Source: Sulfurimonas sp. HSL3-7
Lineage (GTDB): Bacteria > Campylobacterota > Campylobacteria > Campylobacterales > Sulfurimonadaceae
Length of the DNA stretch: 64,000 nucleotides
Reading direction: 5' to 3'
Assembly (NCBI RefSeq): GCF_039645985.1
Contig: NZ_CP147919.1
Location: 1,736,001 to 1,800,000 of the forward strand
The position numbers and the translations under genes were made by a program. The notes beneath the pieces are model-generated. The model was not told the origin of the DNA. It did no database searches and worked only from the letters and a program-made list of their open reading frames with translations. Below, piece after piece: positions 13,144 through 18,570 of this stretch. Each line of letters starts with the position of its first letter. The first letter of the stretch is position 1.

Positions 13144-15516
13144 CTAATTCAAATACAACTCTATGTCAACTTCATCGATCTGTTCTTTTTTTAAGTGCTC
13201 GTTGGCATAACGTCTATAAACACCAGAACGTAAAAAGAGTTCGAACAGTTCGGCATCGATATGTTGATCATCGCGCATAGAGCGCATGATCTTAAGTGCC
13301 TGAGAGAGGGTTTTTCCTTTTTTATAGGGACGGTCTGAAGCCGTCAAGGCTTCAAAGATGTCGGCAATCGCCATGATTCTTGCCGGTATGGAGAGGTCAT
13401 CGGCATTCAAAGCACGAGGGTAACCTGTGCCTATCAAGGTCTCATGATGCGTTCCCGCATACTCCGGTATGCGTTTCATATCATCCGTGTAAGGCAACTG
13501 TTCGAGCATCCTGATCGACATGATCACATGCTCCTGTATCTTGAAACGTTCCTCTTCACTCAAGGTCCCTTTTTCGATACAGAGATTATAGATCTCACCG
13601 TAATTGTAGAGATGGGTCGGAACATCAAGTTTAAAGCCGGCTTTTTCATATCCCTCTTCATCAAAATCGACACGTTTTACAATATGCTCAGAACGGTCAC
13701 CAAGCAGGTTTTCACGAACAGGAAGAGTGGCCGTATCCTCTTCACTGTAACGCATCAGTTCCGTGTCAGATAGGCCAAGCCTGTCATCAAACCGGCGCAG
13801 CCACGTTCGCTTTCCTATCGTCTGTATGCGATCTTTTCGCGCCTCGCTCATAAACTCGCCGCCGATGTTCGTCTCTGCCACAAAACGGAAATCGTCCGTC
13901 AGGGCCTGATGCTCTTCATCTCTCCATCTCTCCAGCTCTTCTTGATTGTCACCTTTTATGATGCCTTCAAGGTAGGCAATCTCTATATCGCGCCATATCA
14001 CTTCAAAACGGGTGCGTATTTCATGTATCCGGTTATAGATGGTCTCAAGCTTTGTCGCCTTGTCAACAACATACTCCGGTGTTGTTATCTTGCCGCAGTC
14101 ATGCAGCCAGGCACCTCTTTCAAACTCTTCCATCTCATCTTTCGTCGTAAAACTAAATGCTTTTAGCGTTCCGGTGTCAGCTTTGCCGGCCTCTTTAACC
14201 AGCATCGTTGCCAGAATCGGCACCCGTTTACAGTGTCCTCCGGTATAAGGCGACTTGGCATCGATCGCATCGGCGATCAGCCTGATAAATGAGTCCATCA
14301 GCTCTTTCTGCGCTTCCTGATAGGCATTGATACTTTTCGACATCGTTACTAAAGAGTCAGAAAGCTGACTCAGCTCTATGATGTTGGTCTTCACCGTGAT
14401 GACTTCGTCAAAATGACGATGCATGATCTTTTCATTTTCAACCATTAACGCCTTGATAGGCCGAACGATTTGTGACGTCACCAAGATGACAAAGGGTATA
14501 CTAAGTACGAACAAGAGCAACGCAGCCAGTAAAGAGTACGCTATATTGTCCAGATATGGTTTTAACATCTCATCTGTGTCGACACTGATACCAAGGTAGG
14601 TATTAGAGCCATTTTCACGGCTCATCGTCGTCACCATCGCAAAACGTTTCTCATCACCCTCTTCCATGGCAAAAACCTTATCCTTTTCACTTTGAAGGAA
14701 AATCTCACTGACACGTTTTCCTTGTCCACTCACCAGCTCTTTAGATGTAGCGATTTCAATACCTTCTTGGTCAAACATCACGATCTCGCTTGACTCTGCA
14801 AACTTGAGATTTTTAAGAAGCATATGGAGTTTAGGCAGCGTAAAATCCAATGCAAGGACAATACCTGTATCTTCAACCCTCATTGAATAGGTAATACCTT
14901 TTTGCTGGAGGTTGCTAAAGGTGTAGGGATCACTTCTAACTGCTTTATCTGTTACGATCGCCTGCTGGAACCAGGGTCTGCTCGTCGCCATGAAATTTGA
15001 AGGCTCTGAACGTCGCAATATAAGCGAAAGCGATGTATCCAGATAGCTGAAGGTCCTGGTTCTCTTCTCTCCGATTCCCTTGATACCAATAACCATCCAC
15101 CGAGTTTCCTTAGGTGCTTCATAGTGTGTGAACAGCTGTGATGAGCTCTGCATATTGATCACTTCAAAAAAGTCACCGTTACTGTCGCCCTTATAGATGG
15201 CGTATATGTTGTTGTTACGTTTCAAGGTGTAGATAAAGCGTGTAATGATCTCCATAGGGAGCATTTCAGTCACCGGCTTCCTGAGCGCAGGATAGTTCTG
15301 CATTTGATAGAGCATTTCTTTGGCCAGTAGGTCACTGCCAAACATATCGGCAGTAATCTTTTCCGCTGTCTGATAAAATGCGTTCTCGGTAGCTGAAAAA
15401 GCCATCTGCTTACTGAAATAATATTGCATTCCCGAGAACAAAAGTGAAACCGAGGTAACGATAAGAAGTATATAGGTGAGAATGTTAGTACGTATAGTAA
15501 CCTTAGGCAGTTTCAT
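13144..15516 (-). CDS. Membrane sensor with HD-GYP phosphodiesterase domain
   Basis: This 790-residue protein has TM1 (about residues 10-30), a large periplasmic Cache/PDC-type sensor region (about 31-340), TM2 (about 345-367), a HAMP-like linker and a cytoplasmic HD domain. HD is H472-D473 (LHDCGKITTPE). The HHE motif is H690-H691-E692, then GTGYP with Ile695 where most HD-GYP proteins have Asp. ADIFEALTASDRPYK supplies the final metal-binding Asp. About 200 residues lie between HD and HHE, a long insertion known in one proteobacterial subfamily. The likely role is ligand-controlled cyclic-di-GMP hydrolysis. It is monocistronic and convergent with the efflux operon. Confidence 0.88.
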   Translation of the reverse strand: MKLPKVTIRTNILTYILLIVTSVSLLFSGMQYYFSKQMAFSATENAFYQTAEKITADMFGSDLLAKEMLYQMQNYPALRKPVTEMLPMEIITRFIYTLKRNNNIYAIYKGDSNGDFFEVINMQSSSQLFTHYEAPKETRWMVIGIKGIGEKRTRTFSYLDTSLSLILRRSEPSNFMATSRPWFQQAIVTDKAVRSDPYTFSNLQQKGITYSMRVEDTGIVLALDFTLPKLHMLLKNLKFAESSEIVMFDQEGIEIATSKELVSGQGKRVSEIFLQSEKDKVFAMEEGDEKRFAMVTTMSRENGSNTYLGISVDTDEMLKPYLDNIAYSLLAALLLFVLSIPFVILVTSQIVRPIKALMVENEKIMHRHFDEVITVKTNIIELSQLSDSLVTMSKSINAYQEAQKELMDSFIRLIADAIDAKSPYTGGHCKRVPILATMLVKEAGKADTGTLKAFSFTTKDEMEEFERGAWLHDCGKITTPEYVVDKATKLETIYNRIHEIRTRFEVIWRDIEIAYLEGIIKGDNQEELERWRDEEHQALTDDFRFVAETNIGGEFMSEARKDRIQTIGKRTWLRRFDDRLGLSDTELMRYSEEDTATLPVRENLLGDRSEHIVKRVDFDEEGYEKAGFKLDVPTHLYNYGEIYNLCIEKGTLSEEERFKIQEHVIMSIRMLEQLPYTDDMKRIPEYAGTHHETLIGTGYPRALNADDLSIPARIMAIADIFEALTASDRPYKKGKTLSQALKIMRSMRDDQHIDAELFELFLRSGVYRRYANEHLKKEQIDEVDIELYLN

Positions 15517-15596
15517 GAACTATCCTTGAGTAAGTGTAATCCATTGTAACACAATATAATTTAGCTGTTTACAAAATCATGATTGAGAAAAAAGCG

Positions 15597-15689
15597 TTAC
15601 AGACGTACCGTTTTGACGCTGGGGCAAGCCTTTGAGAGCTTATCCTTAGCGACATCTGTGACATCAGAATCGAACAAAATAATCATCAT
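15597..15689 (-). pseudogene. Decayed copy of the serA 3' end (ACT domain tail)
   Basis: Minus-strand translation gives a 30-codon open frame ending in TAA. It contains ILFDSDVTD, a CPSVK segment and a terminal VRL. Intact serA (stop at 16984) ends with ILVDSDVSD, CISVK and a terminal ARL. The two tails align over about 30 residues with one 2-residue gap, and the DNA is visibly similar. An in-frame TAA lies two codons upstream of the ATG, so nothing longer is encoded. This looks like a remnant of an old serA duplication, now separated from serA by the lpxR-like gene. A tiny functional ORF is possible but less likely. Confidence 0.7.
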
Positions 15690-15835
15690 TGTTTATATGC
15701 AAAGATTAATCGTATATAATCTGCAATGGATGATATAATGCAATGCTCTTCTCGTCAGTGGAAGACGGTTACTGCTTTAGTGTAATAGTTTGAAATTATT
15801 TCAATTGTTTAAAAATAGAGTCAAAGTTTTGTCTT
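15690..15835 (+). promoter_or_regulatory. AT-rich promoter region of the lpxR-like gene
   Basis: TATAAT occurs at 15715-15720 and an extended -10, TGATATAAT, at 15731-15739, leaving an untranslated leader of about 90 nt before the ATG at 15836. With the serA remnant this accounts for the gene-poor stretch 15517-15835; nothing else is recognisable in it. Confidence 0.4.
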
Positions 15836-16819
15836 ATGATACAACGATTTTTTTTGCTTTTATTCTCTCTCTTTTTGTATCCTCTTATAGCGGAAGAGCG
15901 GCAGGTGTTAGAGCTTGAACGTTTCAATTTTGTGTTCGAAAATGACACCTTTGTCAGAACAGATCGCTGGTATACGGCAGGTATTGATCTCTCGACTTTG
16001 TTTAAACTCAACAATGACCCTTTTTACCTGCCCTTTGCCGACCGCGGCACAAGTGTCTCTTATTTTGCTCTGGCGATCACCCTGGAGATGTACTCTCCGG
16101 AGGAGTTTAACAATCCTGAACCGCAATACGACGACCGTCCTTATGCCGGCTGGGCATATGCCTCTTTTGCCTTACATCAAAGCAGTGCCGAACGTCTGGA
16201 TTCGCTCGAACTTCAACTCGGCCTGGTGGGGCCTTCTGCCAAGGCAGAAGAGATTCAACGTTTTACTCACGATTACATATTGGGGGATGCTGTCGATGGG
16301 TGGCAGAATCAGCTTCATGACGAATTCGGGATTAACCTTGCCTATCACCATCATGAACGGTACCTTGTCGATACAAAACAGTATGAAGCCGTCTTGATTC
16401 CGCGGATAGGCGGTGTTCTCGGTACTGTTCGGACAGAATTCGATCTTGGTCTGCTTTATAGAATAGGGATCCATGTCCCCCGGGACTTTGGACAAAACTT
16501 CGTCATGATGCCGGGTCTTGATTCTGGCATACCGGCCTTAGATAAAAATAAGGAAAAATACAGAGCCGCTTTCAGCTATTACCTACAACTCCAGAGTGAT
16601 TTACGTTTTATAGGAAAAGACCTCTTTTTGGAGGGCAACACCAATAAGAGTTCTCTTTCCGTAGAACCTTATCCTCTGGTTGGAAGGGTTGGCGGGGGTG
16701 TTGGCGGCTCTTATGAGAACTATACTCTTTCACTTGTATATACAGCTGAAAGTCGAAGTTTTACACAACAGCCACACCTGCACGGCTATGCTTCACTGCT
16801 TTTTAGCTACCTCTATTAA
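15836..16819 (+). CDS. LpxR-family lipid A 3'-O-deacylase (DUF2219), outer membrane
   Basis: This 327-residue protein has a signal peptide (residues 1-19) and a repetitive amphipathic pattern ending in an aromatic residue (terminal SYLY), as expected for a 12-strand outer-membrane barrel. LpxR-like residues are N36-D37 (FENDTF), T47 in DRWYTAGIDLS, the DRPYAGW segment, and THDYILGD followed by GWQNQLHDEFG. The His matches the catalytic His of Salmonella LpxR, while the position of Glu128 appears to be Asp. LpxR removes the 3'-acyloxyacyl chain of lipid A; H. pylori has a homologue. No Shine-Dalgarno is obvious. It sits between serA and a serA remnant on the opposite strand. Confidence 0.85.
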   Translation: MIQRFFLLLFSLFLYPLIAEERQVLELERFNFVFENDTFVRTDRWYTAGIDLSTLFKLNNDPFYLPFADRGTSVSYFALAITLEMYSPEEFNNPEPQYDDRPYAGWAYASFALHQSSAERLDSLELQLGLVGPSAKAEEIQRFTHDYILGDAVDGWQNQLHDEFGINLAYHHHERYLVDTKQYEAVLIPRIGGVLGTVRTEFDLGLLYRIGIHVPRDFGQNFVMMPGLDSGIPALDKNKEKYRAAFSYYLQLQSDLRFIGKDLFLEGNTNKSSLSVEPYPLVGRVGGGVGGSYENYTLSLVYTAESRSFTQQPHLHGYASLLFSYLY

Positions 16820-16945
16820 AAATAGTCTTGAACGTTCTTAAATTTCCCTCGCTGTTATACATAATGCCGGTATATCAAAGTGGTGTTGAACAAGTTGGTG
16901 TTGTTATCAAAAGATGAATTGGAATTGAATGGAGAATAAAGAGAT

Positions 16946-16976
16946 AAAAAGGGTACCCTGTATGATCACAGGGTAC
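16946..16976 (-). terminator. Rho-independent terminator of serA
   Basis: GTACCCTGT and ACAGGGTAC form a perfect 9-bp stem with a 6-nt loop (16953-16976). On the minus strand it is followed by CCTTTTTA, directly after the serA stop. Confidence 0.85.
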
Positions 16977-16983
16977 GCAGAGA

Positions 16984-18570
16984 TTATAAACGAGCGGCTT
17001 TGACGCTGATACACGCCTCAAGCGCAGCCAGTTCATTAAGCGTTGCGTCGCTGACGTCAGAATCAACCAAAATAACGGCAAGTGCTTCAGACTTGTTGTT
17101 ACGGCCCAGACGGAAATCGGAGATGTTGACATTATTATTGGCAAGGATCGTACCGACCTTACCGATTACACCAGGAACATCCGTGTTTTTAAAGATGATC
17201 ATGTTGCCTTTTGGCGCGACATCAACCTCAAAACCGTCAAAATCAACAATGCGCTGAACACCACCTTCGAAGATCGTTGCAGAGATGCTGACCGCACGTT
17301 TTTCTGTTGTCAGTTTGACTGTAATAAGGTTTTTATATGGTGTTTTGACATCTGTCTTTTCGACTTCAATTTTAATACCGCGCTGCTCAGCGATAAACTC
17401 GGCATTAACGTAATTGACCGTATCACCTGTCGTTTCAGCCATCGCACCGACTGTTGCAAATGTAGCCAATGAATCAAGGTACTCTGTGATCTCACCGTCA
17501 CCGCTCACTTTTACAGAGACGATCGGTGCTTTGTTGATCTGTGAAGCCAGGAAACCGATCTTCTGTCCCATTTCAAGGAATGGCTTGACAAACGATGGGA
17601 TCTTGCTTTCATCAATCGGAAGGTTCATGGCGTGCGGGTAAGCAATCCCTTTTGCCGCTTCGATCGCCTGTTGTGCTGCCTGAGTACCGATGTTGTACTG
17701 TGATTCAAACGTATTGGCGCCAAGGTGAGGTGAAACAACGATATTATCTAGATCCAGAAGCGGGTGGTCTGTTGCAGGCTCTTTGATAAACACGTCGATA
17801 CCGGCAAAACGGACCTTTCCTGATTTAAGACCGTCGTAAAGTGCCTCTTCGTTATAAAGGCCACCGCGGGCACAGTTGACCAATACAACACCGTCTTTCA
17901 TCTTAGCGATCTCTTCTTTGTCGATCATATTCAGTGTTTCTTGGTTCTTAGGCGTATGGATAGTAATGATATCGCAGGCCAGAATATCATCAAAATTTTC
18001 AGTGTATTCCATCCCAAGGTCAGTGACTTTGGACGCATTGATATACGGGTCGTATGCGATAATATCCATTTCAAAAGCTTTTGCACGTATAGCAACACGA
18101 CTACCAATATTACCAAAACCGATTACACCCAGTTTTTTACCCTTCAACTCATGTCCATACCACTTCTCACGTTTCCAGATGCGCTGGTTTTTAAGATGGT
18201 CATGTGAGTAAGGGAACATACGCATACATGAAAGCATATGTGTCATTGTGAGTTCGACAGCCGCAATGGTGTTGGCTGTCGGTACATTCATAACAATGAT
18301 CCCCTCTTTAGAGCACCCTTCAATATCTACATTGTCGACACCGACACCTGCACGGACGATCGCTTTAAGGTTTTTCGCTGCCGCAATGAATTTTTCATCT
18401 ACATCAGTTGAGCTGCGGGTAATAGCCACATCGGCAGTTTTAATGACATCTAAAAGTTCAGTTTTATCAATATCTGCTGCAAAAACATAATCAACTTGAT
18501 CATCATTTTTAAGCATTTCAAGACCGGCTTCGTGAATGTGATCACATACAACAATCTGATATTTTTCCAT
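16984..18570 (-). CDS. serA: D-3-phosphoglycerate dehydrogenase
   Basis: SerA oxidises 3-phosphoglycerate to 3-phosphohydroxypyruvate with NAD+, the committed step of serine synthesis. The 528 residues are the long form: catalytic and nucleotide-binding domains (GVIGFGNIGSR; active-site region VNCARGG and SPHLGA), an intervening ASB domain and a C-terminal ACT domain (about residues 455-528) that probably senses serine. It has its own upstream gap after the rpsA terminator and its own terminator. Location next to rpsA is conserved in C. jejuni from memory. A fragment resembling its 3' end lies 1.3 kb downstream. Confidence 0.96.
   Translation of the reverse strand: MEKYQIVVCDHIHEAGLEMLKNDDQVDYVFAADIDKTELLDVIKTADVAITRSSTDVDEKFIAAAKNLKAIVRAGVGVDNVDIEGCSKEGIIVMNVPTANTIAAVELTMTHMLSCMRMFPYSHDHLKNQRIWKREKWYGHELKGKKLGVIGFGNIGSRVAIRAKAFEMDIIAYDPYINASKVTDLGMEYTENFDDILACDIITIHTPKNQETLNMIDKEEIAKMKDGVVLVNCARGGLYNEEALYDGLKSGKVRFAGIDVFIKEPATDHPLLDLDNIVVSPHLGANTFESQYNIGTQAAQQAIEAAKGIAYPHAMNLPIDESKIPSFVKPFLEMGQKIGFLASQINKAPIVSVKVSGDGEITEYLDSLATFATVGAMAETTGDTVNYVNAEFIAEQRGIKIEVEKTDVKTPYKNLITVKLTTEKRAVSISATIFEGGVQRIVDFDGFEVDVAPKGNMIIFKNTDVPGVIGKVGTILANNNVNISDFRLGRNNKSEALAVILVDSDVSDATLNELAALEACISVKAARL

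Follow-up and report, generated by a model that had tools for sequence, protein, structure and literature searches.

A second serA 3' end beyond an lpxR-family gene in Sulfurimonas sp. HSL3-7 and its possible origin as a displaced native end

What is a short frame resembling the end of serA doing on the far side of another gene, and how did that gene come to lie between the two? The question is raised by a locus of Sulfurimonas sp. HSL3-7, within a window of 64,000 nucleotides (the whole stretch of DNA that was analysed). The minus strand of this window carries an intact serA gene encoding a D-3-phosphoglycerate dehydrogenase of 528 aa (16984-18570), followed by a plus-strand gene, lpxR, of the outer-membrane lipid A 3'-O-deacylase family (PF09982; 15836-16819), and then by a minus-strand frame of 30 codons (15597-15689) that translates as MMIILFDSDVTDVAKDKLSKACPSVKTVRL followed by a stop. 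An earlier note had proposed that this frame is a remnant of the serA 3' end, that a duplication or an insertion set lpxR beside serA, and that one copy of serA subsequently decayed.

The homology on which this proposal was built is real. The frame aligns with the C-terminus of SerA (residues 497-528) with a BLOSUM62 score of 64, the maximum reached by 3000 shuffles being 50 (mean 25.8, sd 3.9). Comparison of the two tails at the nucleotide level gives a local score of 22, against 8.9±1.3 and a maximum of 17 in 2000 dinucleotide shuffles, with 55 of 87 nt identical in the aligned columns (63%). The best ungapped core matches at 21 of 24 nt (15659-15682 versus 17052-17075); within the window only these two sites carry it, and none would be expected there by chance. 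Although the stretch is short, a chance resemblance has practically no probability, being ruled out by the shuffles at both levels and by this core, and the position and the stop codon of the remnant also match the ancestral serA end. The homology, including the stop, is thus significant at both the nucleotide and the protein level, and the frame is a remnant of a serA 3' end. The homology begins around 15682-15684, i.e. within the frame, whose two or three opening codons (MMI, including the ATG) are not derived from serA. The remnant proper (15597-15684, minus strand) therefore corresponds to codons ~499-528 with the stop retained but two codons missing, deleted between K20 and A21. Because of this deletion, the spacing between the two copies falls from 1393 bp at the start of the tail to 1387 bp at its end. 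The segment between them is bordered by imperfect direct repeats that stem from the serA end (21/24 and 25/35 nt), and the remnant stretch is single-copy in the genome, which is a single contig of 2.87 Mb.

The frame does open with an ATG and close with a stop, but it is very improbable that it is a small gene retained by selection. Indeed, the homologous DNA of the congeners is the serA end itself, with no separate ORF, there is no Shine-Dalgarno-like sequence ahead of the ATG, in-frame stops lie immediately upstream of it, and the 30 residues match no Pfam family. The frame, as judged from these features, is not an independent conserved gene, in agreement with what the earlier note had held.

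The gene order in relatives indicates where serA formerly ended. Among the seven further genomes of the genus, the five with an intact junction (G001, G002, G004, G005 and G007) display an uninterrupted order rpsA-serA-HD-GYP on one strand, devoid of lpxR; in the two whose contigs reach far enough (G001 and G005), a gene encoding an RND transporter comes next. The window keeps this order and orientation, the remnant, the plus-strand lpxR and the live serA end intervening between serA and its ancestral downstream neighbour, a gene encoding a Cache/HD-GYP-type protein (HD_5; 13144-15516, minus strand). The stop codon of the remnant lies 80 bp ahead of the start of the HD-GYP gene, a distance comparable to that between serA and HD-GYP in the congeners. 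This 80-bp spacer (15517-15596, minus strand) corresponds to theirs, and a promoter-like sequence, TGTGTTACAAT, is conserved in it, as judged by eye. By its position beside HD-GYP, the remnant therefore occupies the ancestral place of the serA end. A terminator hairpin follows both the resident gene (16953-16976, minus strand; -15 kcal/mol, z -5.2) and the genes of the congeners; none is found behind the remnant (z -0.6).

The sensor half of the HD-GYP gene exists in two very different types, 50-57% identical between types and 70-76% within the type found in the window, while the HD domain is conserved. In another congener, G003, serA is parted from HD-GYP by a repeat, probably a mobile or repeated element, which occurs both downstream of serA (contig C63, L063, ~690-900) and at the end of contig C49 (L062).

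That one copy of serA decayed after a local tandem duplication, with lpxR between the copies, is suggested by the direct-repeat layout of remnant, lpxR and serA, and G212, another genome, has an apparent tandem duplication that takes in serA and genes downstream of it. The ancestry of the two tails argues against such a history. The remnant is identical to the tail of G003 at 64 of 87 nt, to that of G002 at 61, to that of G001 at 57 and to the resident tail at only 55. A tree built on the last 33 codons (99 columns) clusters it with six congeners (97/97), its best placement being beside G003. A sister relationship of remnant and resident tail is rejected by the AU test (p=0.0085, a value to be read as indicative, like the other p-values on the tails, the tests having been picked post hoc on short alignments). 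It costs 10.7 lnL units when branch lengths are calibrated on serA codons 1-480, a difference reached by none of 150 simulated duplications at each of two duplication ages. As the two tails are not sisters, they have different ancestries, and an origin of the remnant by duplication of the resident tail in this lineage is poorly compatible with the data; it would further require that the resident tail had been converted afterwards. The view of the remnant as a degenerated copy of the neighbouring serA is accordingly rejected as improbable. Of the two routes envisaged in the earlier note, insertion agrees with the absence of lpxR from the junction of the congeners while duplication does not hold, and the idea of a decayed copy gives way to a remnant that is closer to congener tails and sits at the ancestral position.

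It remains to be asked whether the native tail is the remnant or the resident one. Codons 1-480 of the resident serA group with the genus (100/99), and over codons 331-495 the gene is more similar to its congeners than to other genera, by +6 to +14% identity. In the last 33 codons this advantage drops to 0-1%, the corresponding value in the four other congeners tested being +13 to +19%, and it is in codons 496-528 that the contrast in site likelihoods is found (-21.5, for a total of -14.2). The resident 3' end (codons ~499-528; 16984-17075, minus strand) thus lacks the genus affinity of the remaining gene, and since this affinity is lost only in the last 33 codons, the odd tract starts approximately where the remnant starts, as would be predicted by an insertion at codon ~499.

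The opposite assignment, in which the resident end would be native and the remnant would have come from a relative resembling G002 or G003, perhaps together with neighbouring HD-GYP DNA, when a rearrangement set lpxR in place, is possible but rather unlikely. In its favour, HSL3-7 branches basally to its seven congeners according to species markers (rpoC+gyrB and rpsA), and calibrated placement shows that the resident tail fits such a basal native position well, whereas for the remnant this position is 2.5-3.2 lnL units poorer than its best one, beside G003. Furthermore, the HD-GYP and RND-transporter genes also look close to those of G002 and G003, and a close lpxR is shared with G003 alone. 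However, vertical descent is not rejected for either neighbour (HD-GYP tree, p=0.21; transporter tree, p=0.33), nor is a placement of the remnant at the base of the six congeners (p=0.37), and the lpxR of G003 is situated on the opposite side of HD-GYP. A useless 30-codon end would have to be imported at the exact ancestral position. As the resident tail is acceptable at the basal place, the tree alone does not decide which tail is native, and thirty codons cannot settle the matter; gene order tips the balance and makes the remnant the likelier native end.

With moderate confidence, the remnant is thus regarded as the native 3' end of serA, displaced by an insertion that carried lpxR and a substitute serA end, because the congeners lack lpxR at this place, the remnant lies at the ancestral position, the two tails differ in ancestry and the terminator hairpin has been lost behind the remnant. 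Features characteristic of an insert are seen: relatives with an uninterrupted site, flanking repeats and ends of differing ancestry. We infer the direction of this event as well as its exact boundaries and mechanism. Approximately 1.39 kb of DNA (about 15685-17075, boundaries approximate) would have entered serA at about codon 499. This segment would comprise the promoter region of lpxR, lpxR itself, a spacer, the serA terminator and the replacement serA 3' end, i.e. about 30 codons and a stop, lpxR being convergent to this substitute end. serA would have been made whole again from old codons 1 to ~498 and new codons ~499-528, and the former end, 30 codons and a stop, would have been pushed beyond lpxR while keeping its old place before HD-GYP. 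Being no longer translated, it may then have decayed, with the loss of two codons and of the terminator hairpin and an end to selection on its protein sequence.

The cargo gene encodes a predicted lipid A 3'-O-deacylase of the LpxR family. Its product matches the full length of the PF09982 profile (252 bits against a cut-off of 26; 7.4e-75) and matches the solved LpxR structure (PDB 3FID) by sequence (4.7e-6), although it is distant from that protein and is here the cargo of the proposed insertion. The base composition of the gene gives no sign of foreign origin, being like that of the remaining genome; this tells against the insertion, as do the shortness of the tails, the absence of a recombinase gene from the insert and that of a donor from the genomes searched. 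Among 228 genomes of the family, its only close relative is that of G003 (67% identity), and no other close candidate donor was found in the order or in GTDB r220 contigs. In G003 the gene lies beyond a decayed HD-GYP gene, and there is hence no clear sign that the two genomes share one insertion. Similarity between them is also seen over about 87 bp ahead of lpxR, which suggests that the promoter moved together with the gene. In G003 (L062, C49:8000-18943), the HD-GYP gene has lost roughly residues 101-589; what remains of it is separated from the RND-transporter gene by an lpxR orthologue, a small ORF and a glycogen-phosphorylase-like gene. Two further LpxR-like genes, both distant, are found elsewhere in the HSL3-7 genome (C1:2520839-2521810, 37%; C1:1880113-1880580, 33%).

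A donor with serA adjacent to lpxR, or with a nearly identical tail, was found neither among 228 family and 399 order genomes searched for lpxR nor among the 228 family genomes searched for the tail. The genus g14 was considered as the source and rejected, its best tail match being 82% over 87 nt and the grouping being without support (p=0.07). That insertions recur at the serA end was likewise rejected: of 44 serA loci, only that of G212 has another convincing second tail. The latter genome carries a direct repeat of 4.67 kb (L097, 2604-7276 and 9829-14501), whose copies, 99.96% identical and 7225 bp apart, hold the C-terminal two thirds of serA and a transporter gene; it is either a recent tandem duplication or an assembly artefact.

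Several mechanisms could have produced the displacement of the native end. If a small circle with lpxR and a serA end had integrated by a single crossover, it would have left precisely this layout, in the order native 5' part of serA, new end, terminator, lpxR and old end. Alternatively, an integrase-like insertion at the serA 3' end may have occurred, the integrase having since been lost; no integrase or recombinase gene is present in the insert, lpxR being the only gene between the repeats. Integration into the end of a housekeeping gene, which is thereby restored, has a precedent in the Tn5801-like islands integrated in the 3' end of guaA (PMC4844618). As in these islands, imperfect direct repeats derived from the 3' end of the gene border the insert, the target gene stays intact and relatives show an empty site. 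The window insert differs in being only ~1.39 kb long, with one cargo gene and no integrase, and its repeat is a diverged gene end of 30 codons instead of an 11-bp core. A literature search for serA as an attachment site returned nothing. Finally, homology-facilitated illegitimate recombination, in which one-sided homology to the target can bring in adjacent foreign DNA (PMC3240628), may have been at work. It does not, however, predict what is seen here, the far and the near junction lying at the same codon (with some blurring by age), and leaves this coincidence unexplained. It is doubtful that the serA 3' end is more generally a target for small cargo units bringing their own serA end, i.e. 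for a swapping of gene ends; if this were true, a gene for outer-membrane remodelling would have been delivered here without a recombinase of its own.

Globally, the locus is the scar of a gene acquisition and shows lpxR to be a lineage-specific arrival beside a core gene. The likelier direction of events is the reverse of that earlier proposed, the original end having been displaced and the new end having come with lpxR. This is ordinary genome evolution, with the direction of events corrected, and implies no new biological system. A remnant adjoining an intact gene is not necessarily a degenerated copy and may instead be the original; here, the last 30 codons of serA, a core metabolic gene, were probably replaced in the course of the acquisition.
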